Source: Gallionella sp. (lineage in GTDB: Bacteria; Pseudomonadota; Gammaproteobacteria; Burkholderiales; Gallionellaceae). Taken from it: a stretch of DNA of 64,000 nucleotides. The position numbers and the translations under genes are program-made. Below the pieces are notes generated by a model. The model was not told the origin of the DNA. It worked only from the letters and a program-made list of their open reading frames with translations, and searched no databases. Positions 3,238-26,960 of this stretch are shown in pieces (position 1 is the first letter of the stretch; each line of letters begins with the position of its first letter). Location of the stretch: assembly GCA_028710565.1 (NCBI GenBank), contig JAQTTV010000006.1:62001-126000 (forward strand), written 5' to 3'.

Positions 3238-3270
3238 ATGAAAAAACCCGCTTTCGCGGGCTTTTTTCAT
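3238..3270. terminator. Rho-independent terminator (bidirectional)
   Basis: ATGAAAAAACCCGC-tttc-GCGGGCTTTTTTCAT hairpin with A and T tracts. Confidence 0.85.
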
Positions 3271-3288
3271 CTGGCATCTACATATCGA

Positions 3289-3924
3289 TTAGAACGTGTA
3301 GCCAAGGCCAACAGAAAGCACAGGATAGAAACGGAAGTTTTTCAATGCCGCATTCATATCCGCATTGGCTTTAGCGATGTCGGCAGCGGCCACTGCAGCA
3401 CCCGTTGTCGTAATATTGGCGCGAGGCGTACCTTGGAACATGATGCCAATATCGCTAGAAAAGGAAAAACCTTGGTCTTTAGCCGCACTACCCCAACCAA
3501 TACCCAAGTAAGGCACAACCTTAGAGAAATCAACGGTAGAATTTGCTGACACACCCGCATAAGCAGTATTACCCAATGTGATCGTGCCGCCCGCTGGAAC
3601 TGCATTCATGTTGAATTTATTGTTGTTGTACATCAAACCGCCACTCACGCGAAAGCTTCCATCCATAGGATGCCAATCGGCTAATGCAGCCAAACTACCC
3701 AAATTCAACTTACCCGTGAAATTAGTGCCGTTAGAGTTTTGATTAATATTGTAGCTAAAGGTATTAAACCCTATGCGCGCATCAACGGCAGCAGTCACAG
3801 GAAAAGCGACATCAATACCGAAGCCCAACGTCGATAATTTAGCCGACACGGTGGTGTCTTCAGCAAAAGCGGTTGCAGGTAACAAGACGATAGCAGCCGC
3901 CAACATGAGTGTGATTTTTTTCAT
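3289..3924 (-). CDS. outer-membrane beta-barrel (OmpW-like) protein
   Basis: signal peptide MKKITLMLAAAIVLLPATAFA, alternating beta strands, C-terminal LGYTF. Confidence 0.75.
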   Translation of the reverse strand: MKKITLMLAAAIVLLPATAFAEDTTVSAKLSTLGFGIDVAFPVTAAVDARIGFNTFSYNINQNSNGTNFTGKLNLGSLAALADWHPMDGSFRVSGGLMYNNNKFNMNAVPAGGTITLGNTAYAGVSANSTVDFSKVVPYLGIGWGSAAKDQGFSFSSDIGIMFQGTPRANITTTGAAVAAADIAKANADMNAALKNFRFYPVLSVGLGYTF

Positions 3925-4080
3925 TTTATGATCCTCCGAATGATTAAGAACTGCCTAAATTTAGATGATTTCGTCACTCGTCAAAAACATGCCCCCTATC
4001 GAGGTGAATTCCATGCACCTCGCTAAATGTTACCAGATTCTCAAAATCATATTCTGGGTATTGGGCGAAACAGCCTACTC

Positions 4081-4132
4081 CCCCGTCCTATTCAACCTCG
4101 GATCAAACGCATCCCTGACCGCATCGCCAAAG
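4081..4132 (-). pseudogene. duplicated 3'-end fragment of the adjacent ABC permease gene
   Basis: near-identical ~50 bp copy of 5296-5347 (CCTATTCAACCTCGGATCAAACGCAT..CTGACCGCATCG). Confidence 0.75.
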
Positions 4133-4475
4133 GAATTTCAGCTACCAATCGCAAGGCTAAAGGTGCAATCAAAATCCAGAATCTCACACCATACCAATAA
4201 AAAATACGCACTCGACGGAATTAAAACCTGTCACAAAGAAAAACCCAACATGGTTCGACTTGAATTTGTTTTCCTGAAACAAACTGCTGATCGAAGATTA
4301 CTGGTTGTTTTACAAGTACATTCTAAGTATTCCAATCACACAATTCGTGAATTCTTGCAGATGTGTCGAAGAAATTATTGGCTTTGAGTTTGACTATATT
4401 TATACCTGTAAAATAAGCTCGATTGGGCACTGAATTAAGCCTAGAATCGAAACGGTTTTAACTGTGTCGTCATTC

Positions 4476-4592
4476 TAGGGATGTGCTGATTTATTCGGTT
4501 TTGTGGTTTTTGCTGAAGCAAAAACACTTTTGTATCAATGGACTGGATTCCGACCTTCGTCGGAATGACGAATAAATCAGTGTCTCCCTAGT
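4476..4592 (+). repeat. MITE-like element, family A copy 1 (117 bp)
   Basis: 23-bp imperfect terminal inverted repeats CTAGGGATGTGCTGATTTATTCG / CGAATAAATCAGTGTCTCCCTAG; second copy at 16794-16910. Confidence 0.8.
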
Positions 4593-4645
4593 AATTTTCC
4601 AATTTTAACGTGACGATTTGAGTGCTGTCTTTAGGAGGGTAAATT

Positions 4646-5290
4646 ATGTTTCGTCGATTATCGCTGTTTCTGATTGTGTTATTACTTGTTGGATGTGCCG
4701 TCATCAATCCTGTTAGTTTGCCGTCTGATTTGGAGGGAAAGCCACTAGATAAGCACGGGGTAGTTTTTGGTTCCATTGGTGCTGACAGCGAAAATGGTTT
4801 TTTTCAAGATCAGGCGATTTACTATCGAAAGGTGGGTAGTGAGCAGCGTGGGGCGTTTCGATACCTACGCACCGAGTTCAGCAAAATGCCAGAAGACTTC
4901 TCAAGTACCAATGTCTCTGGTAGTGCTTTTTCGTTTAACCTCCCACCTGGAGAATATGAAGTCTTTAATTTGAGGTTGTGGAAGAACTTCGGCTATTTTG
5001 ACAAGACAACTACATCCAAAGAAGATTTCTCAGTAAAATTCACCGTAGAAGAAGGGAAGGCAATTTATCTTGGTGAGTTTATTAGCCGCCACTTTAGTGC
5101 TCAATTTAGTGGGAGTGGGTATTTTATTGTTTCAACAAACAAAATGGAACGGGATAAATCTCTTCTTAGCGGTAAAGGTGTTACATTTCCAGAAAACATC
5201 GAAAATATTTCCCCTTTATTTATCGACTTAAAACATCCAATGTTGAGAGACAAAATGATCCCATACAGTTCGCGCCCTGGAGCCCTGTGA
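4646..5290 (+). CDS. putative lipoprotein
   Basis: lipobox LLLVGC after a hydrophobic N-terminus; RBS AGGAGG upstream. Confidence 0.75.
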   Translation: MFRRLSLFLIVLLLVGCAVINPVSLPSDLEGKPLDKHGVVFGSIGADSENGFFQDQAIYYRKVGSEQRGAFRYLRTEFSKMPEDFSSTNVSGSAFSFNLPPGEYEVFNLRLWKNFGYFDKTTTSKEDFSVKFTVEEGKAIYLGEFISRHFSAQFSGSGYFIVSTNKMERDKSLLSGKGVTFPENIENISPLFIDLKHPMLRDKMIPYSSRPGAL

Positions 5291-5292
5291 TT

Positions 5293-6711
5293 TTACCCCG
5301 ACCTATTCAACCTCGGATCAAACGCATCTCTGACCGCATCGGCGAATAAATTGGCGGCTAACACCAGTACCAGCATAAAGCTAAAGGCGGCGGCGAGTGT
5401 CCACCAGACCATGGGTTCGCGTCCCATTTCGAGGCGGGCGGCGTTAATCATGGTGCCGAAGCTCATCATGGACGGATCCACGCCTACGCCGACGTAGGAC
5501 AGCACGGCTTCAGCGAGTACCAGTCCGCTAAAATCCATGACCAGCGAAATCAAGATGATGTGCATGACGTTCGGCACGATGTGGCGGGTGAGGATGCGTA
5601 AGTGGGGCACGCCGAAGGATTGCGCGGCTTGGATGTATTCCATTTCGCGCAGTTTGAGCGTTTCGCCGCGCAGCAAGCGGCATAAGCCTGTCCAACTGGT
5701 CATGCCCAAAATCAGGCATAAAAACACCAGCCGCAAGTCGGCGCGGGAGGCGGCGGTGTCGAACCATTGCGGGTGGGTGTCGATGGTGATTTGCATCATC
5801 AACACAGCGGCGGCGATCAGCAACACGCTGGGGATGGAACTCAATACGGTGTAAATGTATTGAATCACGTCATCCACCCAACCGCGAAAATACCCAGCGG
5901 CGATGCCCAAAAACAACGCCAGCGGCAGCGTGACTAAGGTCGTCACCGTGCCGATAATCAAGCCCGTGCGGATGCTTTTCAGCGACAAATACAACACATC
6001 TTGCCCGACTTTATCCGTGCCAAGGACGTGATACACCGTGGCGAGATTGGCGAGGATGCCAAGTAAAATGCACAGTAATAAAAATGCGATGATCGTAGGG
6101 GTGAAATTTGACATGTTTGTAGGAGCGCAATTTATTGCGCGATGGTTTTTTTGCGGGGTAAATCGCGCAATAAATTGCGCTCCTACGTTATTCCCAAAGC
6201 CACGAAAAGCTACAATGAGCAATCCGCCGAGCAACAACCCCGCTGCGCCGCCCTGCATACTGCGCCAAGCCATATCGCTATTTTGTGCTGATAAATCAGT
6301 CAGATGCGCGCCGCCATAGCGCAACTTGGGGTAGTCGCGCCGCACTTGTCCTGCCGCGTCGGTGTAGGTTTCTTTGGCATACAAGGTTGTGGCAAACGGT
6401 GCGGAGTAGGTTTTTTCGGTTTGGGATTTTAATTTGCCCAGCAGTTTGTCCAACACGCTGAGGACTTCGGGCGAATAGCTACCGCTTTGATTCGGCAACG
6501 CTTCCCGAAAATGCAGCGTGTCCAATCCGCCGATCAGCAAAAACACCGACAACAGCAACAAGGACACCATCGCCATGGAACTTTGCGCCACGCGTTGCCA
6601 CGGCAACAACAAATGCGGATGCCGCCGTATATGCCAAACGCCCACACCACCCGCACTCAGCAGCAAAAACACCAGCGCGTCGCTCCACAAAATCACGGGG
6701 ATAAAATTCAT
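5293..6711 (-). CDS. oligopeptide/microcin-C-type ABC transporter permease (DppC/YejE family)
   Basis: multi-TM protein with binding-protein-dependent transport signature (YIQAAQSFGVPHLRILTRHIVPN), C-terminal DAFDPRLN. Confidence 0.85.
   Translation of the reverse strand: MNFIPVILWSDALVFLLLSAGGVGVWHIRRHPHLLLPWQRVAQSSMAMVSLLLLSVFLLIGGLDTLHFREALPNQSGSYSPEVLSVLDKLLGKLKSQTEKTYSAPFATTLYAKETYTDAAGQVRRDYPKLRYGGAHLTDLSAQNSDMAWRSMQGGAAGLLLGGLLIVAFRGFGNNVGAQFIARFTPQKNHRAINCAPTNMSNFTPTIIAFLLLCILLGILANLATVYHVLGTDKVGQDVLYLSLKSIRTGLIIGTVTTLVTLPLALFLGIAAGYFRGWVDDVIQYIYTVLSSIPSVLLIAAAVLMMQITIDTHPQWFDTAASRADLRLVFLCLILGMTSWTGLCRLLRGETLKLREMEYIQAAQSFGVPHLRILTRHIVPNVMHIILISLVMDFSGLVLAEAVLSYVGVGVDPSMMSFGTMINAARLEMGREPMVWWTLAAAFSFMLVLVLAANLFADAVRDAFDPRLNRSG
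6119..6186. repeat. REP-doublet-like palindromic element inside a permease CDS
   Basis: perfect 25-bp inverted arms GTAGGAGCGCAATTTATTGCGCGAT / ATCGCGCAATAAATTGCGCTCCTAC with 18-bp spacer. Confidence 0.9.
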
Positions 6712-7685
6712 TGCAACCTCACGCGTGGGTCAACCAGTGTGTAAGACACGTCGGTCAAAATCAGCCCGATGATGTACAGCACCGAGCCTAAAAACACCAT
6801 GGCGCGCACCACGCCAAAATCTTGCGCTTGGATTGCGTCTATGGTGTAGCTGCCCAGCCCTGGCACGCCGAAAAACGATTCGGTCAATAAACTGCCCATA
6901 AACAGCGAGGGAATCACCACCACCACGCCCGTCAATATGGGAATCATGGCGTTTTTCAGCACATGGCGGAACAGCACCGCCCATTCTGACACGCCTTTTG
7001 CCCGCGCCGTGCGCACATAATCCTTGCCGATTTCTTCTAAAAAAATGGTGCGATACCAGCGCGTGCTCGCGCCTACGCCGCCGAGGATGCCGATCAAAAC
7101 GGGCAAAATCAAAAATTTCACTCCGCTCCAACCGCTGTCATAGCCTGAAATCGGCACCCAATGCCACAGCTTGCTAATCAAAAATTGCCCGCCGATAATG
7201 AAAAATAAACTGGAAACCGACATCAATAACACACATACCGCCACGCCCGCAGTATCCAAAAACGTGCCGCGCAGCAGTGTCATCACCAAGGCGAAGCTGA
7301 CGTATAACAGCAGCCCGACTAAAAAAGTCGGCAAGGCAATCGCCAAACTGGGCAACATCCGCGTTTGAATTTCCCGCGAAATGTTGCGCCCGTCGTCCGA
7401 AAAACCAAAGTCCAACACAAACATCCCCACCGATTTATCCCAAAAAATCGTGTCAGTGATTTGCGCCGTGCCGCTGTCTTTTACATTAAAAAATAAAGGC
7501 TTATCGTAGCCGTGCTGGTGTTTCCATTTGGCAATAGCTTCAGGTGTCACACGCTTCATGCCCAACTGCATCCGCGCCATATCGTCGGGCGTATTGACCA
7601 CAAAAAACAAGGTAAAGGTCAATAGATTCACCCCGATCAAAATCGGCACGGCGTACAAAATGCGGCGCAATAGGTAGGCAAACAT
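6708..7685 (-). CDS. oligopeptide ABC transporter permease (DppB/YejB family)
   Basis: MFAYLLRRILYAVPILIGVNLLTFTLFF N-terminus, DYVRTARAKGVSEWAVLFRHVLKNAMIPI motif; 4-bp overlap with next gene. Confidence 0.88.
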   Translation of the reverse strand: MFAYLLRRILYAVPILIGVNLLTFTLFFVVNTPDDMARMQLGMKRVTPEAIAKWKHQHGYDKPLFFNVKDSGTAQITDTIFWDKSVGMFVLDFGFSDDGRNISREIQTRMLPSLAIALPTFLVGLLLYVSFALVMTLLRGTFLDTAGVAVCVLLMSVSSLFFIIGGQFLISKLWHWVPISGYDSGWSGVKFLILPVLIGILGGVGASTRWYRTIFLEEIGKDYVRTARAKGVSEWAVLFRHVLKNAMIPILTGVVVVIPSLFMGSLLTESFFGVPGLGSYTIDAIQAQDFGVVRAMVFLGSVLYIIGLILTDVSYTLVDPRVRLQ

Positions 7686-7748
7686 GAGGAAATTCAGGGA
7701 ACAATGCGGATGCGCATTGTAGGGGCGACGGGAAGGGCAAGCAATGGA

Positions 7749-7955
7749 TTAACGCGGCAAGTTTTCGTTTTCCTCTGGGATCACAACCCACAGGAAGACC
7801 ACAATCAAGGCGATGGTAGCGTATCCTTCTTGGAACGAGAGCGATGCGGTCAGTTGCCACACGACGTAGGCGGCAAGCAATCCCAATGCCAGCCCGACAA
7901 GGCTTCTTCTGGTCAGCGGAAATAAATCAAACAAGGCAAGGATAAAATCGAACAT
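7749..7955 (-). CDS. small membrane protein
   Basis: short ORF starting MFDFILALFDLFPLTRR with two hydrophobic segments. Confidence 0.5.
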   Translation of the reverse strand: MFDFILALFDLFPLTRRSLVGLALGLLAAYVVWQLTASLSFQEGYATIALIVVFLWVVIPEENENLPR

Positions 7956-8017
7956 AGATCGTATCTTTCCAATCATAAACGGAGGCATCAAGCCCCCGTT
8001 TTGGAAATTCTCCGCGT

Positions 8018-9013
8018 TTATTTGCTAAACGGTTGTGAGCGCGGGGTTTTGTCGTTGGAAGGCGGCAAAATCGGCAGCGCAAAGCTAGGTTGTTTACCTG
8101 TCAATGTTTTCAAGAAAGCCACGATTTGCGCATTTTCGGCATCGGTGAATTTCTTGCCCAATTGCACGCGACCCATGGTTTCCACCGCTTGAGTCAGCGT
8201 TGCCGCTTCGCCGTCGTGGAAGTAGGGGTAGGTTAATTCGATATTGCGCAAAGTTGGGACTTTGAACAACAGACGATCTTCCTCTTTGCCTGTTACACCA
8301 AGACGACCTGTCGCGCCGCTCGCCGTTTGATAAGCGGATACCGCCCCCATTTTTTGGTAAGAATTGCCGCCTACCGCAGGACCGTTATGGCACGCCACGC
8401 AACCACTGTCTTTAAACAATTTGTAACCCGCTGTTTCATCCGCCGTTAAGGCTTTTTTATTGCCTTTCAACCACTTATCAAAACGAGAATCGGGTGTCAC
8501 CAACGTCGTTTCAAAAGCGGCTATCGCAGTGGTCACCTTATCAATATCAACCGTGTTAGAACCAAATACCTGCTTAAATTCCGCCACATAAGCAGGAATA
8601 GATTGCAACACTTCCACTGCAATGACATGAGTCGAAGCCATTTCACCAGGATTGGCGATTGGACCGCCTGCTTGAGCTTTCAAGTCTGCGGCACGACCAT
8701 CCCAGAATTGCGCCAGATTCATGCTGGAATTCAACACGGTCGGCGCGTTAATTGGCCCTTGATTCCAATTGTGACCAATGGAAGTTTTCAGATTATCTGT
8801 ACCGCCCATGGACAAATTGTGGCAAGAATTACAGGAAATAAAGCCCGATTTCGACAAGCGTGGATCGAAAAACAGCTTTTTGCCCAGCTCCACCATGGCT
8901 GGACTTTTGACTTTTGCAGCGACAATCGGTTGTATGGGTTCTTTGCTACCCGCTTGTGCGGCGGAAGCGGCAACCATCAGTGCGCTAAGCAACCAAATAC
9001 GAGAATAAGACAT
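8018..9013 (-). CDS. cytochrome-c peroxidase
   Basis: signal peptide, two CxxCH motifs (CNSCH, CVACH), APTVLNSSMNLAQFWDGRA. Confidence 0.9.
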   Translation of the reverse strand: MSYSRIWLLSALMVAASAAQAGSKEPIQPIVAAKVKSPAMVELGKKLFFDPRLSKSGFISCNSCHNLSMGGTDNLKTSIGHNWNQGPINAPTVLNSSMNLAQFWDGRAADLKAQAGGPIANPGEMASTHVIAVEVLQSIPAYVAEFKQVFGSNTVDIDKVTTAIAAFETTLVTPDSRFDKWLKGNKKALTADETAGYKLFKDSGCVACHNGPAVGGNSYQKMGAVSAYQTASGATGRLGVTGKEEDRLLFKVPTLRNIELTYPYFHDGEAATLTQAVETMGRVQLGKKFTDAENAQIVAFLKTLTGKQPSFALPILPPSNDKTPRSQPFSK

Positions 9014-9121
9014 CTGACTTCTCCTTAAGATAAAAAGATTATGACGAAAAAACGGGTGCGAATTGTAAACCCAACTGATAAGCAACCCCTAATACTCTTC
9101 ACTGCCAAGGCAAACTCAACG

Positions 9122-12100
9122 TCATGGTCGTTCCGCCGCTTTTAGCCAATCATTCACACTATTCACGCCCAAGGACAACAGCTTGTCTTGAACGGACACC
9201 ACGCGTTGCAGCATCGCGCGTTGGTCGGACTCTTCTCGCTCCTCGGCTTCGGCAAATAAACGGGTGATTAACTGTGTGATGTGATTTCCATGATCGTGTA
9301 GATATGGTTTGGCATGACGAACATAATCCAAGTAGATTTCAGTTGCCGCTAAAGCCTGTTCTGGGTCATGTTGTGCCGTGGCATTTAGCCATTCATCAAA
9401 CCCAAAGAGGCGGTGATGTTTGTTTTCGCTATCGTTCTGAAGCACGCTAAAGCACAGACGAATCAGCTCTGTTGGAACAGAAATCACGGGAGTATTGTCT
9501 CGAAAAACATGATCCATTTGCTGTGAAACCACCCGTGCATAAGGCGCATCAGCATTCAAGCCCGCCTCAATACCATCAAAACATTGTTCACGAAATTGTT
9601 TGATATTGTCAGCGTGCGTCCAAACATGAGCCGCTCCCTGCCATGCTTCCGTGCTATTCAAAGTTTTCAATTCCTCAAGCCAAACGGCAAAGTCAATGCG
9701 TTTTGACAAAGCGGCCAAGGCTGAAATCCGCCCCCATACTACCAAGTCCTTGCCGCCTCCTTCATGACGAAGGCGCGCCAAATAAGGCATGACTTGCTCA
9801 AAATGGTTGTGAGATGCGAAATAAAGACAAGGCTCGGCAATTTGCCAAAGTCCTTCGGCATCTTGCATGGCGAGATGGAATAACGCCCAGCCCAACTCAG
9901 GATTTTGGCTTTGCAGATAAGGGAGCCGCCGCAGGATTAAGGCGCGAATCACTGGGTATTCGTTGCTGGCAAAACGGCGCAAGGTGTATGGCAATAATTC
10001 AGGAAATGGCACGCCGTGTTCTTGCAATCCATTCGCTAAGATCATTAAGGATTCGACAACATGACCGCTGACCATATTGATGCCATTATTGAGCAAATTG
10101 ACGCTATCCCCTTTGATGGCGTTTTCTTCTTTAAGATTAGCAAAACCGATTGCCAGAATCACCAGCCGCGCCGCATTTTGTGTGTCTTGAATGACATGGG
10201 AACAGGCTTGCAAGGCATTAGATGCAGCACGATTAAGTTGCCATTGTTCAGGATGTCTTTCCAGTTCGTCTAGGATATGACAGCACAATGTTTGTGCATC
10301 AGGCTCTTCAAGTGGCAACCAAGTGCCATTGGTTTGCAAATTGCCATAACGATACGAAAGATAATTAGCAATCCCCTCCATGATTTCATCACGAAAAGCT
10401 TTGGTAATATCGCTCCAATGCGTTGATAACAATTGCAAGAATCGCGTGGGGTGACGGGATGAAGCTTCGCGCAGCTGCCCTCCAACTTCTCGTTCACCGC
10501 CAACCAAGTGATCAGTGCCACACCAATCGAAATAACCTGTGTAATGATCCAGCAAATGCAATACACCGTCGTCACTGGTATTCAAAAATACGTCAAATGA
10601 AAATGGTGCGATAACAGAAACCAAGTGCATTCCAATGCTTGGCTGTCGCACCAAGATGCCCTCGCTAATTTCGTAAGCGTCCAACATAGCTTGTGCTTCG
10701 GCAGCACGTAGATGACAAGGAATCGTGACAATCAATTCCACTCGATTTTTCAGTATCCAAGAACGATCATGTTCATGCCATAAAGTCAAAATGTTTGACA
10801 TCACAGCATCTTGAACGGACTCGTCGAGGTCAACAAATGCCACTTTCATCAACGTGCCGAATTCATACGCAAGGCTGGATTCTAAAAATTTCTTGATGCA
10901 CAACATACGCCCAATTAACGCGATATTGGCTTGCGGGACGGCAGTGCAAGCCAGTATGGCGAAGTAGCGTAATGCGCCTTCTGGATTGAAGCACAAGCGT
11001 TCGCGGTTGCTTTGCCACCAATCAGAATGTGTTTTTGCGTGATGAAGAATGGCAGCTTCCATTGCATCCAACAGAATGCGCTCATTGCCTATATGTCGAT
11101 ATGCGGTTTGAGTGAGGGTATCGTTGTAGGAAGTTTCGTGCAAAAACTCACTGTAGTAGTGCTTCTGAATATCGCCATAGCGGGATGACTTAATTCGACT
11201 CCACTCTTCAATAGTCGCTACTGCCAAATCCAACAATGGGACAGATTGCATCATCCGTTGTCGAATAAAGTTGTCGTTGCTATTGCTAAACTCGTGAGAT
11301 TCGCAACGTATCTTCTCCCCGAAACGCCCTTCCGAAACATCGTCTTCGCGGATGTCCCCTGTGATATAGCCCCATAGTCGATTGTCGTCTAACGCGCCCG
11401 CTGTCACACAACGGGCAAGAACTTTCCCTAAAAAGCTGTGTTCTGGTCGCGGCAGTCCAAGCAACTTTTCCAGTAAAGGGGCAAGCAATGACAAATTTTC
11501 TGTTTTGAATTCGGACAGATAAAAAGCTAATTGATGCGCAATACTATTCCCATCCACCCAATCCAGTGACAGGACTTCCTGCCAAAACGCTAATATCCCA
11601 GCAGCATCTTCGTTTTTCCACTGCGCGACCCGATGCACATGGGCGGTCAGCCCTTCGCTATCGCGTGCATCTTTTAACATCGGCAATAGATGCGCAAACC
11701 AAAAGTGATGCCACTCAATACGCGTCGCCAAGGTATAAATCACCTGAAACACCTCACGATGATCTTTGCGCAAATCACGCAGCAATGACCAATCTTCCGC
11801 CTGTGGTTGCTGCTCGGCGAAGGATTCTGCGACCAAACGGCGAATATGAAAAGGTGCGTTCCCCGTTAATACCGTTCGCAATTGTTTTCTGAATTCGCGA
11901 CGCTCCTCACTCGTCGCCAATTGCGCCACAAAACTGCGAATGCTGGGACGCACAAAAGGAACGGGCGGCAAGCCTTGAATAAACGCATTCAGCGTGATGC
12001 CTTGGCGCACCTTACCGCTAATGACCAACACATCCAGCAAAGTTTGATGCCCGAAGGTGATTTTTCCATCTTGTGTTTCTTGTAGCACATTGAGACTGCG

Positions 12101-13672
12101 CAATTGTCGTTGAACCGCTGGTGAAGCCGTAACGCGCTGATGCGGCACGGCAAGACTGCGGGACATCAACATTTCATCGGCAATCGCTTCAATCGCTTGC
12201 ATGGCAATATCCCCCAATTCAGGATTGTCTCGCACAATGGTTTTGAGATAGCGTTGTGCTAAGGCTTGGCTGTTGACGACATTGAAGCTGCCACTTTGCC
12301 GAGCGAGGTCAACAAACAGAGCTAATTCACGGGGATTCTGGATAAGCTGGCGGGTGACGGCATCAATGTTTGCTGTATCAATGTCGAGTTTATTGAGTAG
12401 CGGCGCAATTTCAGTCTCCCAACTCAAGGGCAAACATCGCAATTCGCTATCCCATTTTCGTTCGGCAATGCGGCGGTCGTAATGTCGATCAAAGTCCCGA
12501 CAGGCGGTTATCACGGTGACATTTGGTATCAAAAGCAAGCGGTCGATTTGCGCTAAAAAATACGTCAGTACGCTGTGTTCGCGGGCAATGGACAACACAT
12601 CCAAAGAGTCGATGACCACAACTACTTGCGCGTCTTCTGCCATGCGCGCCACTTTTTCAACCCACTGCTCAGGCAAACCTTGGGCTTGGCGATCTTGTGC
12701 CGTGGCAAAATCGGCGAATTCACGCGACTGAATGAACAGTGGGACTAAATCTGAGCGACTCTGTGCGCGCTGTTCCAACGCTTCTTGCAATGCCAACATC
12801 ACACAAGTTTTGCCCGAACCTGGCAGCCCCGTTAGCAAAATGGCACGCTTTTTGTCTTCAATGGCGGCAAGTAAGTTGTTCACTATCGGGCTAGAAATAC
12901 GCTCCCCTGCAATGTCCCGATGCCATGACCTGCCGATAGTTGAGGTGCTAACAAACGATGCGCGCACTTCCGCAAGATTCATACTCGGCACCAGCATTGC
13001 ACCCGCTTGGTGGAGAATATCCTTGAGATCGGCTTTGGTCAGGCGATGCTGGGCGGCAGCAGATATGCCGTTGCCCAGCATGCGCGCACCAAGCTGATCG
13101 AGCCGAACCCAAAGGACATCAAACGCGATGTTTGAATTGCTCGCCATCACTCTCAAACGCTCTCGGAGTAACTCCCCCATCCGATCCAGTTCAGGGCTGA
13201 TTTCAAACTTGGTGCGGCATAAAAAATCGTAAGTCGATAGCGAAGGCGCGAGGCGTTTCGCTAAATCAGCGTTTATTTTTTGCTGCTCTTTGCCTAAACC
13301 CGCAAGGTAATGAGCTTCATTGGCTTGTGTCGTGCTGTGTTCGCGCAACTTGGCGATTTCACCAAAATTATTACGCGAATAGAAACGCACATCCGCATTC
13401 GGATTGCTTGATAGCAAAGAAAAGGCTTTATTCAACTCATCCGCAAGATCGGCGATAGTCCATGCTTTGAAATTCTGTTGATTCTTTTTGCATTGGCAAC
13501 AAATCAGCGTACCGTCGGTTTTTCCAACCACAACGTCATCGACTGAGTACATTGTTGAATCAACCTCAATCCATTGAAAATCTGGATCGGTCAGAACAGT
13601 TAATGCCCAATCAAAGGCGACCAATGTTTGGTAACCATCACCTCGGTTAGAATAAATCCCTGCTTTACTCAT
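9122..13672 (-). CDS. large STAND-type P-loop NTPase with N-terminal Cap4/DUF4297-like nuclease motif
   Basis: N-term RGDGYQTLVAFDWAL..WIEVDSTMYSVDDVVV..LICCQCKK; Walker A LLTGLPGSGKT; Walker B VVVVIDSLD; ITACRDFD; ~900-aa helical C-terminus. Confidence 0.75.
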   Translation of the reverse strand: MSKAGIYSNRGDGYQTLVAFDWALTVLTDPDFQWIEVDSTMYSVDDVVVGKTDGTLICCQCKKNQQNFKAWTIADLADELNKAFSLLSSNPNADVRFYSRNNFGEIAKLREHSTTQANEAHYLAGLGKEQQKINADLAKRLAPSLSTYDFLCRTKFEISPELDRMGELLRERLRVMASNSNIAFDVLWVRLDQLGARMLGNGISAAAQHRLTKADLKDILHQAGAMLVPSMNLAEVRASFVSTSTIGRSWHRDIAGERISSPIVNNLLAAIEDKKRAILLTGLPGSGKTCVMLALQEALEQRAQSRSDLVPLFIQSREFADFATAQDRQAQGLPEQWVEKVARMAEDAQVVVVIDSLDVLSIAREHSVLTYFLAQIDRLLLIPNVTVITACRDFDRHYDRRIAERKWDSELRCLPLSWETEIAPLLNKLDIDTANIDAVTRQLIQNPRELALFVDLARQSGSFNVVNSQALAQRYLKTIVRDNPELGDIAMQAIEAIADEMLMSRSLAVPHQRVTASPAVQRQLRSLNVLQETQDGKITFGHQTLLDVLVISGKVRQGITLNAFIQGLPPVPFVRPSIRSFVAQLATSEERREFRKQLRTVLTGNAPFHIRRLVAESFAEQQPQAEDWSLLRDLRKDHREVFQVIYTLATRIEWHHFWFAHLLPMLKDARDSEGLTAHVHRVAQWKNEDAAGILAFWQEVLSLDWVDGNSIAHQLAFYLSEFKTENLSLLAPLLEKLLGLPRPEHSFLGKVLARCVTAGALDDNRLWGYITGDIREDDVSEGRFGEKIRCESHEFSNSNDNFIRQRMMQSVPLLDLAVATIEEWSRIKSSRYGDIQKHYYSEFLHETSYNDTLTQTAYRHIGNERILLDAMEAAILHHAKTHSDWWQSNRERLCFNPEGALRYFAILACTAVPQANIALIGRMLCIKKFLESSLAYEFGTLMKVAFVDLDESVQDAVMSNILTLWHEHDRSWILKNRVELIVTIPCHLRAAEAQAMLDAYEISEGILVRQPSIGMHLVSVIAPFSFDVFLNTSDDGVLHLLDHYTGYFDWCGTDHLVGGEREVGGQLREASSRHPTRFLQLLSTHWSDITKAFRDEIMEGIANYLSYRYGNLQTNGTWLPLEEPDAQTLCCHILDELERHPEQWQLNRAASNALQACSHVIQDTQNAARLVILAIGFANLKEENAIKGDSVNLLNNGINMVSGHVVESLMILANGLQEHGVPFPELLPYTLRRFASNEYPVIRALILRRLPYLQSQNPELGWALFHLAMQDAEGLWQIAEPCLYFASHNHFEQVMPYLARLRHEGGGKDLVVWGRISALAALSKRIDFAVWLEELKTLNSTEAWQGAAHVWTHADNIKQFREQCFDGIEAGLNADAPYARVVSQQMDHVFRDNTPVISVPTELIRLCFSVLQNDSENKHHRLFGFDEWLNATAQHDPEQALAATEIYLDYVRHAKPYLHDHGNHITQLITRLFAEAEEREESDQRAMLQRVVSVQDKLLSLGVNSVNDWLKAAERP

Positions 13673-13735
13673 TGCACCTCCCCGCAAAACATATTCGTTC
13701 TCGTAAATTTGAACCGAAGGCTGGCGTGTTGATGG

Positions 13736-19175: not shown

Positions 19176-19415
19176 ATGCTCACTATCCAAACCCCCCTGC
19201 AACTTGGCGCAGCCGTGCGCGGCGCACGCAAGCAACTCGGATTGACCCAAGCGCAATTGGCCTTGGCGGCGGGCGTGGGCGCGCGCTTTGTGGTGGAGTT
19301 AGAAGCGGGCAAGCCCACCGTGCGCTTGCAACACACCTTACGCGTCCTTGCCGCCTTGGGCGGTGAATTGCAACTGGCGGGCTTGCCAGCCGAAGGCGAT
19401 GACCGTGCAGCATGA
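19176..19415 (+). CDS. hipB: HipB-like XRE antitoxin
   Basis: GAAVRGARKQLGLTQAQLALAAGVGARFVVELEAGKPTVRL HTH; followed by hipA. Confidence 0.87.
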   Translation: MLTIQTPLQLGAAVRGARKQLGLTQAQLALAAGVGARFVVELEAGKPTVRLQHTLRVLAALGGELQLAGLPAEGDDRAA

Positions 19416-20658
19416 ATTAGCGGTATGGTTGTTTGCGGAACGCGTCGGCACATTGACGTGGCAAGCGGGGCAGCTGGCGTTTGGCTACACCGACGAATGG
19501 TTGCAACAAGCGGATGCCGTACCGCTGTCCGTCACGTTGCCATTGCGCATTGAAGCCTTTGACGATGCGGCGACGCGTCCGTTTTTCGCAGGATTATTGC
19601 CCGAAGGGCGGCTGCGTGACCTGATCGCGCAGCAATTTCACTTGTCGCGCCAGAATGATTTTGCCCTATTGGATCAGCTCGGCGGGGAATGCGCGGGAGC
19701 GGTCAGTTTATTGCCTTTTGGTGCAGCTTTGCCTGTGGCGACCCAAGCGGTGGATTGGCTGGATGAGGCGCAATTGCTCGCGCTATTAGACGAACTGCCG
19801 CGTCGCCCGATGTTGGCGGGCAAAGACGGCTTGCGCTTGTCATTAGCGGGTGCACAAGACAAACTGCCCGTGGTGGTGCAAGGTGAACGCATCGGTTTGC
19901 CGCGTGCGGGCACGCCCAGCACCCACATCCTGAAACCCGCCATCGCGGGCGTGGAGGACAGCGTGGTGAACGAAGGATTTTGCCTTGCGCTCGCTGCCCA
20001 GCTCAAGCTTCATGTTGCCCGCGCTCAGATCTACCCGCTGCAAGATCAGCATTTTTTGCTGGTGGAACGCTACGACCGCCTGCACACGGGCGAAGCCGTG
20101 CAACGCTTGCACCAAGAAGATTTTTGTCAGGCATTGGGCTACGTGCCCGAAATGAAATACCAAAACGAAGGCGGGCCGAATCTGGCGCAATGTTTTGACC
20201 TGCTGCGCCTCGCCACGCGCCCCAGCGTCACACACGTTTTGCGGCTGTTGGACAACGTCATTTTCAACGCCCTGATTGGCAACCACGACGCGCACGCCAA
20301 GAATTTTTCCCTGTTGTATCAAGGAAAATCCGCCAGCATCGCCCCATTGTACGACACCCTTTGCACCGCGATTTACCCTAACTTATCACCCAAAATGGCG
20401 ATGAAACTCGGTAGTAAATACCGCTATGACGACGTGTTTCCCCGCCATTGGGATCAATTCGCCAGCGATGCAGGGCTGTCCAAAGCCCAAACCCGCAAAC
20501 GCGTGCAAACCCTCGCCAGCGCGCTCCCCCCCGCCGCCCGCCAACTTCAAACCGATCCGCGTTTTGTCGCCTCACCCGTGGTGGAAGCCATCGTGCAATT
20601 TATCGAACAACGGGCGGAAATGACCTTGCGACGGTTGAGGGGCGTAGAGGCGATGTAG
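19399..20658 (+). CDS. hipA: HipA-like serine/threonine kinase toxin
   Basis: LAGAQDKLPV, FNALIGNHDAHAKNFSLLY, PLYDTL motifs; overlaps hipB. Confidence 0.9.
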   Translation: MTVQHELAVWLFAERVGTLTWQAGQLAFGYTDEWLQQADAVPLSVTLPLRIEAFDDAATRPFFAGLLPEGRLRDLIAQQFHLSRQNDFALLDQLGGECAGAVSLLPFGAALPVATQAVDWLDEAQLLALLDELPRRPMLAGKDGLRLSLAGAQDKLPVVVQGERIGLPRAGTPSTHILKPAIAGVEDSVVNEGFCLALAAQLKLHVARAQIYPLQDQHFLLVERYDRLHTGEAVQRLHQEDFCQALGYVPEMKYQNEGGPNLAQCFDLLRLATRPSVTHVLRLLDNVIFNALIGNHDAHAKNFSLLYQGKSASIAPLYDTLCTAIYPNLSPKMAMKLGSKYRYDDVFPRHWDQFASDAGLSKAQTRKRVQTLASALPPAARQLQTDPRFVASPVVEAIVQFIEQRAEMTLRRLRGVEAM

Positions 20659-20886: not shown

Positions 20887-23800
20887 CTACGGGAGCGTCC
20901 TAGCGAGACGGAAACCGCCGAGGTGATCCAGTTCCGTAGGGATACTGCCGCTGCGATTGGCAGCACGACTAAAGCTAGGATAATCGATCCACGAACCGCC
21001 GCGCAACATCCTCCATACAGATTTATCCTGCCATGCACTACCGTCATTCGGTACGTCTTGGTAATTGCTATGCCATGAATCTTGTACCAATTCCCACACG
21101 TTGCCGCTCATATCGTATAAACCCCAAGCATTCTTTTGCTTGCCACCAACGGGATGCGTTTTCCTGCCGCTATTGCTGTTGTACCACGCAACCGCATTTA
21201 CGTCATCGCTACCACAGTAGTTGCTATCCTCGCCTGCGCGGCAGGCGTATTCCCATTCGGCTTCGCTGGGAAGGCGATAACCCCCTCGCGTCGCTTGGTT
21301 TAACCACGCTATCATCGCTTGACTGTCATCCCAGCTAACACATGCCACAGGATCGTTGTCCGTTTGGCTAAACCCTAGCTTGCGCCATGAGTTGCCTTGG
21401 ACACTTCCCCAATTACCTGAGCTATCCAACGAATAACATGAACCTTGCTTTTCCGCCGTGGTTTGGTAATTCGTCGCTTCCACAAAGGCGCGGAACTGCG
21501 CAACCGTCACTTCGGTTTTGCCCAATTGAAAAGCACGGATTTGAACTTTGTGCGCGGGTTTTTCGTCATTTTGACAATCCTTATCTCGCCCATCCTGACA
21601 GCCCATCACAAAACTCCCTGCGGGGATATTGACCATTTCAAAAGAAATTTTCTGGGTTGGTACTTTTTGATCTGAAATTAGTATTTCGTCAGACGCACCA
21701 TAACTACACGCATCATCTCTTCGCAGCGTTGCCAACATAGCATCACGATCATTCACGGTATTACCTCTCAAGCTTTCAATAGCTAACTGCTTTTTGCTTT
21801 CAGTTGATAATGCTTCTTGACCTGCTTTGCGATATATCCGTTTTGTACATTTACTAAATTCAGCTTCCGAAATCCTTGTAATCACGCCATCTACAGCTTT
21901 GATGTACTGAATTCCTGAAGGGAGGAGAACGGGCAATGTTTGCTGAGCTGGAGGCGCTGTCGAGATATGGTTTACAGAAGAAACGGGTGCTACGGCAGAA
22001 GCAGGTGGTGTAACATGAGGCACAGCGGACTTCACTGGCGGCACGGAACTGGGAACAGACGACGTGGGCAAAACGTCTGAAACCACAGGCGGGTTGGGTA
22101 ATGCTGGTGGGGGCTTCTGCGGTTCAACAGGCGTTTCATCCAGTTGAATTGGCACTATATTTAACTCGGCAAACCACGCGAAATATCCGACCACACCTAG
22201 AAATACCAGCTCTGCCATCAATACCACCATGCTCCGTCCAAGCGATGATTGCAATATCGCACCACGGGTACTCACCGCCAAGCGGTTCGCCATAAATGAT
22301 TGAAAAACATAGTCTTGCGATAAGGTTTCGCTGCGTTGCCACCACGCGGGCAGCAGGTGTTTGAGCAGCTTAGACGGGCTTTGTTGGGCGATGGCGAGGG
22401 TGAGGTCTTGCGCTTGGGCTGCTTGCCCTTGCAACATGGTTTTAAGCAACTCCGTCAGTTTGGCGCGAATCACTTGCTCGGCTTGCGGGGTTTTCTTTTG
22501 CAGTTGATTGAGCAATGCCAATCGCAACCAGTCGGGCATATAGCCATGCCGCAACCACGGCAAACGGGCGAGTGCTAACAACAGGGCTTCGTCTATTTTC
22601 CCCTCACCCGTTCGCCCTGATCCTTCGATTGGCTCAGGACTAAAGGCAAATGTCGAAGGGCTGGTTGCAGGGGAAGCTTGTCCTTCGACAGGCTCAGGAC
22701 GAACGGGATTTGTGGATGGTTCAACGGCACGCGCTTGTCCCAAATACAAGGTGAGTTGCCAATGCAATTCAGGATACACGGCGCAGGCGGCGAGCCAGTT
22801 GAATCCATCTGGTTGCAAATAGTCATGCAGTTGCAGCAAGAGTTCGGCAACGGTATCGTCATCTGGCGCGTGGCGTTCAATAAAGCGCAGCGGGCGTTGT
22901 TGCAGCAGCGCGGGGTAGTGGTCGGCTTGGTCGCGTTCGACTTGGGCGTGTGCTTGGTCGGATGAGACGTAGTTGACCAAAGTCGCCAAACCTTGTTGCC
23001 CCGTCGCCAATACCACAAAGCCCGCTTGGTGCAGTTGTTGTTTGTAATAGTCCCAATGCTGGGGAGATTCGGGCGTGAATAAGAAACTTTGTTGCCATTC
23101 TTGGAGTTTGGCTAACCACGGGTAAGGTTTGCCGTGGATGGGATCGACAAAATGGCGGCTGTCGCTGAAGATAATCAGGCGATGATTGGGGTAGCGGGCT
23201 TGCAGGGCATCGAGGCGGCACGGCACAGTGGGCGTGTTTTCGGCATAGCAACGGCGCGGGTCGCGGTCGAAGTAGTATTTTTCGATAAACAGCCCAAAGT
23301 CTTGTAATTCTTGCAGCAGCGATTGCACAAACGCGCTGAGTTGGTCATTAAAACTGGCGCGATCAATCAACACCAAGTATTCAGGCAAGGCTTTAATGGC
23401 TTGGTACGCGGGCGTGAATTGCCCACCCGCCGCGATGGTGCGTTTGACCGTGGCGGCGACATCCAACAAGTGCGCGTCTAGGTCGCGATGTTTGTGTAAT
23501 TGCTGCGCGGTGCGAGCAAATGCCACGGAAGAAAAGGGCTTGAGCGGCACCTTGTTGAAAAATTTCTCAAATTCAGGCGGTTCGGAGACTTGATGACGGG
23601 ATAAAAAACGCCGTGCATTGAGATACGGGACGGCGTACCACAACACGGTGGCGATGAATAATGCCAACACCCACCAGAAGGTAAGTTGGGCGGGGGGAGT
23701 CGCAGGCGGCACGGGGGGCGTAATCGGTTCTTCTGGTTTTACAGGGGGCTCATTGGGAATGTCTGGCGTTGCAGGTTTGATTTGTGGCACGTCGCTCACA

Positions 23801-24294
23801 TTTGAAGCCGAAATGATTTCGATGCTGGTAGTGGGTTTATCGGGCGAAGGTTGTATGGTTTCTTGTTGCGAGGGCACGGTCCAAATCGGGTGCAGCAACA
23901 GCCCACCCATCAACAGCGCGGGCAAGATCAAAATCAAGAAGAACAACCCCATCACAAAATGGGTGATTTTCTCTTGGTGCTGGAGTTTGTCCAGCATTTT
24001 TGCCATCGGCTTAACAGGCGCGATAGGCAGTGCAACAGGCGCAAACCGCTCGTCAAACAGCCGATAAAACTCCGCTTGCTCTTGCGGCGAACCACACAAA
24101 ATCGGCGCAATCACATTGCGCAACGCGCTGAAATCGTCCTCCAGCAACCCCCGCCCCGCCAACGACAGCAACAAGGTATAAACCGCGCAATAGCTATCCA
24201 CGCCAATGTTAAACCCCCGCCCATGCAGCTCGGCAATGAGGGTTTGTAGTTGGTCGTACAAGTGGTCAACTTGGTCGGGATTGGGTGGAAGCAT
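20887..24294 (-). CDS. vWA-like (CoxE-type), transmembrane protein with C-terminal formylglycine-generating enzyme (SUMF1/FGE) domain
   Basis: N-term LRNVIAPILCGSPQEQAEFYRLFDERF; EYLVLIDRASFN...RLIIFSDSRHFVDP...WDYYKQQLHQAGFVVL; TM segments; NIPAGSFVMGCQDG..RLPSEAEWEYACRAG..GSWIDYPSFSRAANRSG..GGFRLAR. Confidence 0.75.
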   Translation of the reverse strand: MLPPNPDQVDHLYDQLQTLIAELHGRGFNIGVDSYCAVYTLLLSLAGRGLLEDDFSALRNVIAPILCGSPQEQAEFYRLFDERFAPVALPIAPVKPMAKMLDKLQHQEKITHFVMGLFFLILILPALLMGGLLLHPIWTVPSQQETIQPSPDKPTTSIEIISASNVSDVPQIKPATPDIPNEPPVKPEEPITPPVPPATPPAQLTFWWVLALFIATVLWYAVPYLNARRFLSRHQVSEPPEFEKFFNKVPLKPFSSVAFARTAQQLHKHRDLDAHLLDVAATVKRTIAAGGQFTPAYQAIKALPEYLVLIDRASFNDQLSAFVQSLLQELQDFGLFIEKYYFDRDPRRCYAENTPTVPCRLDALQARYPNHRLIIFSDSRHFVDPIHGKPYPWLAKLQEWQQSFLFTPESPQHWDYYKQQLHQAGFVVLATGQQGLATLVNYVSSDQAHAQVERDQADHYPALLQQRPLRFIERHAPDDDTVAELLLQLHDYLQPDGFNWLAACAVYPELHWQLTLYLGQARAVEPSTNPVRPEPVEGQASPATSPSTFAFSPEPIEGSGRTGEGKIDEALLLALARLPWLRHGYMPDWLRLALLNQLQKKTPQAEQVIRAKLTELLKTMLQGQAAQAQDLTLAIAQQSPSKLLKHLLPAWWQRSETLSQDYVFQSFMANRLAVSTRGAILQSSLGRSMVVLMAELVFLGVVGYFAWFAELNIVPIQLDETPVEPQKPPPALPNPPVVSDVLPTSSVPSSVPPVKSAVPHVTPPASAVAPVSSVNHISTAPPAQQTLPVLLPSGIQYIKAVDGVITRISEAEFSKCTKRIYRKAGQEALSTESKKQLAIESLRGNTVNDRDAMLATLRRDDACSYGASDEILISDQKVPTQKISFEMVNIPAGSFVMGCQDGRDKDCQNDEKPAHKVQIRAFQLGKTEVTVAQFRAFVEATNYQTTAEKQGSCYSLDSSGNWGSVQGNSWRKLGFSQTDNDPVACVSWDDSQAMIAWLNQATRGGYRLPSEAEWEYACRAGEDSNYCGSDDVNAVAWYNSNSGRKTHPVGGKQKNAWGLYDMSGNVWELVQDSWHSNYQDVPNDGSAWQDKSVWRMLRGGSWIDYPSFSRAANRSGSIPTELDHLGGFRLARTLP

Positions 24295-24367
24295 TATTTT
24301 GTGGTTAGTTATTAGGGTAAAACACTGCGCGCATCCGCCATTGTTACCATACATTCAATTAGATGCG

Positions 24368-24468
24368 ACTCCCCTCGCCCACTTGTGGGAGAGGGGCGGG
24401 GGAGAGGGTGCGCGCCCGCCAATCAAAACTCCCTCTCCCTAACCCTCTCCCGCAAGCGGGCGAGGGAA
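24368..24468. repeat. CTCCCCTCGCCC..GGGAGAGGG palindromic repeat (family D)
   Basis: shared with 32694-32737, 48774-48870, partly 20687-20718. Confidence 0.7.
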
Positions 24469-24508
24469 TAGGTGCGCTATGTTAATGACCTGTCTGGTTA
24501 AAATCCGA

Positions 24509-25474
24509 CTAAACGTCTATGTTATATATATTCCGCACCGTTTTGCGGTCGTCTTCGTTTTTAATCAATACCGACAAGGTGTGGGTAATCGCTGCTTTTC
24601 TGTCTGCCAAAGGATTGTCTTGATGGGGATAAATACTTTGCAAGGCGATGATCCAGTTCAATAATTCAGCCGTGGCGGGCGATTTTTGCAAGTTGCTGCT
24701 GCGCAGGGTTTTAAACACACTTAACGCATCGGTCACAAATTGAGAACTGGCAACGGTTTCGCCAAGGTGAGCGGAAATAATCCGCGTCAAGTCGACATCA
24801 TTGGGGAATGACAGGTGGTAATACACGCAGCGGCGCAAAAAGGCGGCGGGCAGATGCTTTTCAGAATTGCTGGTGAGGATCAGCACAGGGCGCAAATCGG
24901 CTTGCACCTTGACATTGCTCAATTCAGGAATGCGGAAATACATGCCTTCCACTTCGTTCAAAATGTCGTTGGGAAAGTCGCGCTGGGCTTTGTCGATTTC
25001 GTCGATTAACACCACGGAACGCGTGGCTTGGTCGTGTTTGACAAAATCGTCATTCACCAAAGTCTGAATTTTCTCGTAAGGACTCGCCCGCAAAATCGCC
25101 AAGCCCAAAGCGTTGTAGGTCAAATAATCGCGGCTATTGAGCGAACCTTTTTGGGTTTGCGCGGCTTGAAAATGACGTAAATGATCGTAAAAATAAAACA
25201 AATCCTTGGCGGTGCTGTTGGATTTGGTCTCAAATTTTAACGGTTCAGGCAAGCCCAGATGATGCGCCAAGTGATACGCCAGTTGCGTCTTCCCCGTCCC
25301 CGCCTCGCCCGTCACCAGCAACGGCTGCCCCAATAACAACGCCACATTGATCGCATCCACCAAGCCTTTATCTGGAAAATAGGGCGTGCGATTGAGTGAT
25401 TTTTGATGCGGAGGCGGGGGCAATTCCACAGGGGAAGTCAGTGGTTTAGCGGGGGAATAGTAGGGGTAGCTCAT
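24509..25474 (-). CDS. MoxR-family AAA+ ATPase
   Basis: LVTGEAGTGKTQLAY Walker A, VVLIDEIDKAQRDFPNDILNEVE Walker B, LILTSNSEKHLPAAFLRRC. Confidence 0.88.
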   Translation of the reverse strand: MSYPYYSPAKPLTSPVELPPPPHQKSLNRTPYFPDKGLVDAINVALLLGQPLLVTGEAGTGKTQLAYHLAHHLGLPEPLKFETKSNSTAKDLFYFYDHLRHFQAAQTQKGSLNSRDYLTYNALGLAILRASPYEKIQTLVNDDFVKHDQATRSVVLIDEIDKAQRDFPNDILNEVEGMYFRIPELSNVKVQADLRPVLILTSNSEKHLPAAFLRRCVYYHLSFPNDVDLTRIISAHLGETVASSQFVTDALSVFKTLRSSNLQKSPATAELLNWIIALQSIYPHQDNPLADRKAAITHTLSVLIKNEDDRKTVRNIYNIDV

Positions 25475-26466
25475 GGTTTGACCTGTAGGGCGAGTTGTTC
25501 GAGGACGGGTTTGAGTTTCTTGGCTAAAAATCCTAATGCAAGTTCTTTACTTTCTTGCTGACGGCGAATGGCTTCAACTTCTTCGCACACGTCGTCATAA
25601 ATGGAGCGATTGAAAAATTTCCGCACGTCATCGCTTTCTGACCAGTTTCTGAGATGTACCTCTTTAATGGGTTCTAGCCTGTCCAATAGCGTGCAATGTT
25701 CAAATCCTGTTTTCTGCTCAAAAGCAGTTTGGATTTGCAGGTCGAGGTCTTTTTTGCCGAATAGGCTACTCATAAAATTTGGGGTGCTGGGCTGGTGATA
25801 GAAAAACAAACACACCAAAATCAAATAGTCATCGCCTTGATCCATTTCAAAATCTTGCCAGAATCGCAAGAAATAATGCAGGGTATTCACACCATCACAT
25901 TGTCGGCAGTCTTCCGTGGACAAGGCGGCATAGAGCAGAATCGGTGTTTTTATGGCGCGCATCGCGGCTTTGATTTCAGCCAGATCGGCAGTTTTATTGT
26001 GCGCAAAACTCTCGCCTAGACTGCGCCGCATATTGCGATGAAGCTGATCGGCATTCTTAAAATCTTCCGTTTTGATGAAAGATTTTTGATAACCGTCTTT
26101 GAGTTGATTTTTGGTGGCAGTCACTTGGGGCAACACATTGCGCGCAATACGCTCCACAAAGCGTTCGCTACAACAATCGTCATCGCTGCCGCGAACAATA
26201 CACAGCAACGGTTGCTGGAAGTTTTTGTGCTGCGCGATAGCCTCAATTAAGTCATCTTCCTGCTTTTGACGATTGAGCAGATAGGGGAGAAAGGACGTGT
26301 CAGGAGTGTGGCGAAGCGGGGGATTGGCTTTGTTTTCGCCGTAATGGTGATGAATTTCGGTTTTATTGCCACCGACTACATCGCCCCCTGCTTGGGTAAT
26401 ACTGCCCCCCGCCTCATTAAACTGAGCATCTCCATTCAGATTTTCGATATTTGTGGGTTGATTCAC
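25471..26466 (-). CDS. iSTAND-like (inactive STAND) protein with N-terminal GGDVVGGNK repeat
   Basis: NEAGGSITQAGGDVVGGNKTEIHHHYGE then FLPYLLNRQKQEDDLIEAI..PLLCIVRGSDDDCCSERFVERI; 4-bp overlaps on both sides. Confidence 0.65.
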   Translation of the reverse strand: MNQPTNIENLNGDAQFNEAGGSITQAGGDVVGGNKTEIHHHYGENKANPPLRHTPDTSFLPYLLNRQKQEDDLIEAIAQHKNFQQPLLCIVRGSDDDCCSERFVERIARNVLPQVTATKNQLKDGYQKSFIKTEDFKNADQLHRNMRRSLGESFAHNKTADLAEIKAAMRAIKTPILLYAALSTEDCRQCDGVNTLHYFLRFWQDFEMDQGDDYLILVCLFFYHQPSTPNFMSSLFGKKDLDLQIQTAFEQKTGFEHCTLLDRLEPIKEVHLRNWSESDDVRKFFNRSIYDDVCEEVEAIRRQQESKELALGFLAKKLKPVLEQLALQVKP

Positions 26467-26960
26467 AAAACCACTCCAAACAACGCTGCCAACGCAGTGA
26501 CGACAGGCAAGAGTTTAAGTCCGATTTCAGCTGCTTTTTCGCCAAAAGTCTGGGCTTTATCGAGTAATTCACCGGTGGTTTTGAGGCATTCGGTGACGGT
26601 GGTCGTTTGTTGGGGCGTGGCAGCATGGGCGACGGGAAGCGCGGCGGCTTGGGTTTTTACGTCGTTCAAAGCTAAAATTTGCTGAGATAGGTTTGCGCTC
26701 AGTAAGTCACGTGCATCTTGATCTTTTTCGGCGGCGGCTTCTACTGCGCTTTTAATCGTGCGCAATGCGGCGCGCAAATTGTCTAGTTCCGCGAGAAACT
26801 GCGCCTTGTCCGCTTCTTGTTGAAAGCCGTGATAAGTCGTTGAAGTGGTGGTGATTTTATCGCCATATACCACATCACCATCCGCATGGATGATATTGCC
26901 GCCCGCATTATTGATGGTCACATTGCCTGATGCAGTGCCGATATGTATGCCTTTACTCAT
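26463..26960 (-). CDS. small protein with N-terminal GNVTINNAGGNIIHADGDVVYGDKI repeat and C-terminal hydrophobic helix
   Basis: start at MSKGIHIG; C-terminus IGLKLLPVVTALAALFGVVL; overlaps next gene. Confidence 0.65.
   Translation of the reverse strand: MSKGIHIGTASGNVTINNAGGNIIHADGDVVYGDKITTTSTTYHGFQQEADKAQFLAELDNLRAALRTIKSAVEAAAEKDQDARDLLSANLSQQILALNDVKTQAAALPVAHAATPQQTTTVTECLKTTGELLDKAQTFGEKAAEIGLKLLPVVTALAALFGVVL

Follow-up and report, generated by a model that had tools for sequence, protein, structure and literature searches.

A MoxR-vWA iSTAND ternary locus in Gallionella and a small protein sharing a short motif with its iSTAND partner

Among the conflict systems predicted around a MoxR-clade AAA+ ATPase and a von Willebrand factor A (vWA) protein, the 'vWA-MoxR subsystem 2: iSTAND ternary systems' of Kaur et al. 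2020 (eLife; PMC7159879) have an inactive STAND (iSTAND) protein as third component and are concentrated in cyanobacteria, proteobacteria and bacteroidetes, with an FGS domain on the vWA protein in ~22% and transmembrane segments in ~28% of cases. In ternary systems of Thiohalocapsa PB-PSB1, a C-type lectin/formylglycine-generating enzyme (CLec/FGE) domain has been proposed as an antigen sensor (Dore et al. 2024, PMC10907252). In their predicted logic, ternary conflict systems are the bacterial counterparts of the apoptosome. Here, we analyzed a four-gene operon in a 64,000-nucleotide stretch of Gallionella sp. DNA (contig JAQTTV010000006.1 of assembly GCA_028710565.1; hereafter the window), and we find that it fits each tested feature of the MoxR-vWA iSTAND ternary class. 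New here is an additional gene at the head of the operon, whose small product shares a motif with the iSTAND N-terminus; the ternary combination itself is known.

The operon and its conserved core

The operon lies on the minus strand and begins with the gene of a small protein of 165 aa, the proposed effector (26463..26960), followed by those of an iSTAND protein of 331 aa with a GTG start (25471..26466), a MoxR-clade AAA+ ATPase of 321 aa (24509..25474) and a 1135-aa vWA/FGE protein (gene 4, 20887..24294), the frame of which is open from 24354. A first-pass annotation of this DNA had placed all four genes correctly, including the 4-bp overlaps at the small protein/iSTAND and iSTAND/MoxR junctions. 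MoxR and gene 4 are separated by a 214-bp gap made up partly of palindromic repeat DNA; the equivalent gap in the congener Gallionella sp. STC_38 measures ~76 bp, as derived from locus coordinates and alignment. The same annotation had suggested a multi-component NTP-dependent conflict system, which is also our best reading and whose domains we could confirm; the combination had, however, already been described by Kaur et al. 2020.

The iSTAND-like core of the second gene product corresponds to PF19995 (E=1.1e-12, residues 61-220) and has a degenerate P-loop (VRGSDDDCCSERF), so that the inactive-STAND third component, a feature of the class, is present. The MoxR protein has the intact Walker motifs ascribed to it (GEAGTGKT and VVLIDEID) and, at 321 aa, carries no VMAP-type extensions; since its N-terminus contains no tryptophan, the WxhapG/PsWRxa motifs are absent. 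It is 90-92% identical to the congener's MoxR and 52-64% identical to those of other systems. No system-specific match for the operon proteins was obtained in NCBIfam or PADLOC, the latter giving weak ATP-binding-motif AAA matches.

According to Pfam and hydropathy, the gene 4 product comprises an N-terminal helical part, transmembrane segments at residues ~112-136 and 204-222, a vWA/linker region, a third transmembrane segment at ~690-708, a Pro-rich linker and the FGE domain. No library profile detects a vWA domain in this protein itself, and a PDB sequence search with the region yielded nothing useful. An AlphaFold model of residues 240-620 (vWA and helical linker; 22435..23577, minus strand), built from 55 homologues, reached a pLDDT of 86.8, and its top three Foldseek matches in the PDB were NorD chains of NorQD (E 1.3e-4 to 3.9e-3, probability 1.0), with TM-scores so low (0.26-0.37) that they represent a fold call rather than a close match. 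The VWA_CoxE family of Pfam was matched by 7 of the 55 homologues, and an aspartate is found at the end of strand 1 in 36 and at the end of strand 4 in 38 of them, positions reported for vWA domains of this class (Kaur et al. 2020, PMC7159879). A NorD/CoxE-type vWA in gene 4, where the first-pass annotation had seen a CoxE/vWA-like region, is thus supported at the level of the predicted fold. Within the vWA linker, a dispersed repeat occurs twice in frame (TCCTTCGACAGGCTCAGGAC and a copy with two mismatches; 22621-22700) and reads RPEPVEG and SPEPIEG (chance expectation in the window 0.01); gene 4 of STC_38 has an extra 31-aa insert beside these copies.

A three-sequence MoxR alignment, used to scan ~85,000 species genomes, yielded 73 loci, 63 of which keep the core order iSTAND, MoxR, vWA, several of the other ten being on short contigs. 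Core-order loci span Proteobacteria, Cyanobacteria, Bacteroidetes, Chloroflexi and others, and 27 of the 63 have FGE on the vWA protein. Within Gallionella, the MoxR gene occurs in 2 of 61 genomes. STC_38 carries the entire four-gene operon at the same site beside gmk; a yicC-like gene lies directly upstream of gmk in three of five other congeners inspected. DNA identity to STC_38 is ~87-100% over gmk and its flank and ~80-97% over MoxR and most of gene 4, falls to 60-75% over the small gene and 41-60% over the iSTAND gene, and breaks up over the Pro-rich linkers and FGE. At the protein level, the vWA region is 95%, MoxR 91%, the small protein 59% and the iSTAND protein 30-31% identical between the two congeners, and the FGE region is a mosaic. 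This pattern indicates that the switch is conserved and the flanking parts change, as expected if sensing and effector parts evolve fast around a switch that stays fixed. An iSTAND cassette swap from another genus was considered and rejected, since the nearest relative of the window iSTAND remains that of the congener (~30-31%), followed by one from Thiotrichaceae (~29%); replacement and fast divergence are indistinguishable here.

The NorD matches of the vWA model, as well as a gene 4 product that spans the inner membrane, would also suit an ordinary MoxR-vWA chaperone pair of the NorQD, CoxDE or RavA-ViaA type, which would mature or remodel an envelope enzyme with FGE and iSTAND as scaffolds and without any cell death. 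We regard this as quite improbable, however, given that no metalloenzyme or plausible client gene adjoins the operon, that the iSTAND N-termini of sister loci hold TIR, caspase-like and trypsin-like domains, that the presence among congeners is patchy (2/61), and that divergence is far faster in the iSTAND and FGE parts than in MoxR.

A motif shared by iSTAND proteins and their upstream neighbours

A G/N-rich motif of ~30 residues is common to the small protein and the N-terminus of its iSTAND neighbour, located at residues ~5-35 of the former (IHIGTASGNVTINNAGGNIIHADGDVVYGDK; 26856..26948, minus strand) and ~6-35 of the latter (NIENLNGDAQFNEAGGSITQAGGDVVGGNK; 26362..26451, minus strand). In a comparison of the small protein with its own 3.27-Mb genome, the sole other match at E<=1 was this iSTAND N-terminus (44% over 32 residues). 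The first-pass annotation had seen the relatedness of the two N-termini and missed its significance as a putative coupling device; it had also recognized the C-terminal hydrophobic helix, which is present at residues 146-164 (hydropathy 2.18). In the AlphaFold model of the small protein, helices at residues 48-75, 81-106, 120-137 and 142-164 follow a disordered N-terminal motif. Neither an enzymatic domain nor any Pfam, NCBIfam or PADLOC match above the curated cut-off was found, and membership in a known family was rejected on the latter ground. Relatives of the small protein were absent from the plasmids searched, and 369 genomes of the class gave one marginal match; its C-terminal helix aligns with that of the cyanobacterial effectors of the L125 type described below, which also adjoin NACHT proteins (hhalign prob 83; E 9e-6, counted for this one comparison). 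In a Methylococcaceae metagenome-assembled genome (L025, 7008-8921), what is left of the system is a fusion of the small protein's helices to part of an iSTAND protein, followed by MoxR, with no vWA gene found in that stretch.

What precedes the iSTAND core at sister loci can be read by eye as a TIR, caspase-like, trypsin-like or DUF4062-like domain; in other cases it is helical or a short G/N/Q-rich motif. The TIR, caspase-like, trypsin-like and DUF4062-like domains would be effector or signalling modules; in the window the motif stands alone, and the small gene would supply the rest in trans. Where the iSTAND protein has a motif N-terminus, the gene just upstream usually bears the matching motif. 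Such partners are, besides the small proteins of the window and of STC_38, hydrophobic helical (Bell-like) proteins with a C-terminal NQGQxIGQMxGG at L032, L036 and L046, CHAT proteins (CHAT proteases, assigned by Pfam) at L039 and L040 and a pentapeptide protein at L044. L125, on a Cylindrospermopsis plasmid, encodes a free-standing 158-aa protein with the layout of the window protein, that is, N-terminal motif, helices and hydrophobic C-terminus. Relatives of this L125 effector directly precede NACHT proteins at L126 and L127 and have NVQIGG/DVQIGG and then AG(R/G)D in common with them; NACHT partners were found only for cyanobacterial relatives of this effector architecture.

In nine loci, each iSTAND protein matches the motif of its own neighbour. 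When these nine and the NACHT pairs of L126 and L127 were compared in an 11 x 11 arrangement, the cognate sum reached 907, while permutation gave a mean of 468 (sd 70) and none of the 50,000 permutations attained the cognate value; the pairs were chosen because they match and related loci are not independent, so that this result describes specificity and is not a formal probability. Among 53 unselected pairs, namely every locus where an upstream open reading frame accompanies a suitably long iSTAND N-terminus, together with three added pairs, the cognate sum was 2678 against a permuted 1573 (sd 80), and it was 1945 against 1416 (sd 49) after removal of four helical/EAD pairs. At least four unrelated motif types contribute to the cognate matching. 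On an Anabaena plasmid (L130, 6588-8291), a small helical protein may form a second motif pair (KIGLVVQSGGRVSIQNF / KIGIYAPQGQISIENL) with a protein of 417 aa that has no assigned family.

Sensing, switching and signalling

The C-terminal domain of gene 4 (residues ~886-1135; 20887..21639, minus strand) had been described as FGE/C-type-lectin-like, and it matches PF03781 (E=1.6e-55, residues 886-1132), the FGE family, whose fold is of the C-type-lectin kind, with nothing nearer to lectins in Pfam. Arginines follow the second and precede the third transmembrane segment, and acidic residues follow the third; hydropathy and these flanking charges together predict the vWA inside and the FGE domain outside, in the periplasm. 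Formylglycine-generating enzyme has a C-terminal pair of active-site cysteines. As no cysteine follows the RGGSW motif of the window domain, enzymatic activity is unlikely, and the domain is probably a periplasmic sensor rather than an enzyme. Comparison of its C-terminus with paralogues and the congener revealed common framework codons interspersed with codons that vary, resembling the variable repeat (VR) pattern of diversity-generating retroelements (DGRs), with no adenine template available. Active DGR diversification in this genome was rejected, no match to reverse transcriptase (PF00078) being found in it. Congener reverse transcriptases of 314-324 aa, encoded with an upstream partner gene (L119, 548-2439; L120; L121), look retron-like by eye, and their surroundings, those of the 324-aa enzyme included, contain nothing that strongly matches the FGE 3' end or a template.

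About a dozen FGE stretches occur in the genome, and some of the paralogues have signal-peptide-like starts as read by eye; one of them in the window, a stand-alone FGE protein with such a start (46630-47439), is 57% identical to the operon FGE domain. Elsewhere in this genome, two tandem pairs of TIR-like and STAND-like ATPase genes (by eye) are present at L122 (G000:C18:132000-145000, 2520-10659), the first STAND-like ATPase being fused to an FGE domain of the operon's type, and a caspase-like gene adjoins an FGE protein at L123 (G000:C8:5000-14000, 4804-7253).

We propose a model, the chances of which we consider evenly balanced, in which this ternary conflict system connects the FGE domain through the switch and the iSTAND protein to motif-driven assembly of the small protein and membrane damage. 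Anchored by the third transmembrane helix, the FGE domain would bind a cue on the outer side of the inner membrane, and the vWA/MoxR pair would serve as an ATP-dependent threshold switch that releases or remodels the iSTAND protein. The N-terminal G/N-rich motif of the latter would then nucleate an ordered assembly with the same-type motif of the small protein, and the clustered small protein, a predicted helical bundle with its C-terminal hydrophobic helix, would attack the inner membrane and stop the cell in an abortive-infection type of response, possibly to phage. The roles of sensor, switch and effector, which the first-pass annotation had suggested for FGE, MoxR/vWA and the small protein, are inferred and would fit both the proposal of Dore et al. 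2024 and the motif pairing.

The same ternary system could operate with the small protein as an inhibitor or scaffold of the iSTAND protein (antitoxin-like or an oligomerising partner) and with the FGE end of gene 4 as effector. Such an arrangement would agree with Kaur et al. (PMC7159879), who put effectors at the vWA C-terminus and report FGS as commonest in iSTAND systems, and with a small protein that has no enzymatic domain and a moderately hydrophobic helix. At sister loci, however, the motif is borne by partners of the effector kind, namely CHAT proteases or hydrophobic helical proteins, and a cysteine-free FGE C-terminus with VR-like variability suits recognition better than catalysis, and we judge this arrangement unlikely.

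Regarding the way in which the motifs of our model might act, BASS motifs occur at the N-termini of NLRs as well as on 'Bell' proteins, which are small and helical and include a hydrophobic helix (Dyrka et al. 2020, as related in PMC7889193), and the same review asks whether bacterial amyloid signalling exists outside NLRs. The window pair resembles this BASS logic, with the effector ends reversed and an NTPase-dead receptor, and an amyloid nature of the window motif is suggested by this analogy. We tentatively propose, at somewhat less than an even chance, that in ternary systems a catalytically dead STAND protein signals to the effectors by means of short, lineage-swapped amyloid motifs acting as prion-like templates. 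A comparable standing, short of probable, is given to the possibility that the shared motif folds into a docking module of the beta-roll or hexapeptide-like kind, as an EAD-like homotypic adaptor and not of the amyloid type. Motif repeats of two relatives weakly match the beta-roll family PF21300 (E about 0.01), and coupling through paired EADs is well established for the class. The window motif is duplicated on the iSTAND and small proteins and has no EAD match in Pfam. Against a docking module, it is a stretch of only ~30 residues that is disordered in the monomer model, and a related effector family uses the VQIG core, the G-phi-Q-phi-G core being the RHIM/PP signature (PMC7885112).

Several observations weigh against the proposed model and its amyloid-type variant. 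The window motif has no detectable relationship to the VQIG motif (hhalign prob 1.3), and a RHIM relationship was rejected as detectable homology on this basis; nor was there a match among the published amyloid-motif profiles that were run, BASS1-10 not being among them. The model of the small protein is of low confidence (mean pLDDT 56), and the window iSTAND motif scores slightly higher against the small protein of the congener (76) than against its own (68). Furthermore, Kaur et al. (PMC7159879) regard FGS as an effector and not as a sensor, and the system class is enriched in multicellular bacteria, of which Gallionella is no textbook example.

If the templating proposal were true, amyloid signalling would extend beyond NLRs in bacteria, and the small Gallionella protein would be a new type of effector with an N-terminal motif. 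Cognate motif pairs on an NTPase-dead STAND protein would offer a concrete candidate answer to how the switch signals to the effector, and would join EAD-type ternary systems and BASS amyloid signalosomes, between which we found no cross-discussion in the open-access texts consulted; the text of neither Kaur paper discusses amyloid-type motifs.

Among the other genes of the window, a pair encoding an HTH and a HipA-like protein (19176-20658; a HipBA-type toxin-antitoxin by eye) lies directly downstream of gene 4 in convergent orientation. A 1521-aa minus-strand protein (9122-13687) and a 328-aa protein (60868-61854) have N-termini that look nuclease- or defence-like by eye.

Comparison with known systems

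With NorQD and CoxDE, the window locus shares a MoxR AAA+ ATPase combined with a CoxE/NorD-type vWA; unlike them, it has no metalloenzyme context and adds the iSTAND, FGE and small proteins. The DGR-diversified ternary systems that Dore et al. 2024 (PMC10907252) described in Thiohalocapsa PB-PSB1 likewise combine MoxR with a vWA protein that ends in a CLec/FGE domain, the antigen sensor of their proposal, and the VR-like variability of the FGE C-terminus may be a further likeness; the window locus differs in having iSTAND in place of VMAP, and its genome has no reverse transcriptase.

As far as the BASS NLR/Bell pairs are characterized in the review cited above, the likeness lies in adjacent, overlapping genes and in a motif common to a STAND-type N-terminus and a small protein with a hydrophobic helix. 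The differences are that the window STAND protein, being NTPase-dead, belongs to a MoxR-vWA system with no NLR (active NACHT/NB-ARC) receptor, and that the effector starts with its motif and ends in its hydrophobic helix, the reverse of the Bell arrangement, where the motif is C-terminal on the Bell domain.

With the iSTAND systems of Kaur et al., the predicted class to which it belongs, the locus shares the three core components, a C-terminal FGS/FGE domain and transmembrane segments on the vWA protein, and a MoxR protein without VMAP-type extensions. It departs from them in an iSTAND N-terminus that consists of a short G/N-rich motif instead of a TIR, caspase, trypsin or EAD domain, and in a small helical protein, encoded first in the operon, that carries the same motif.

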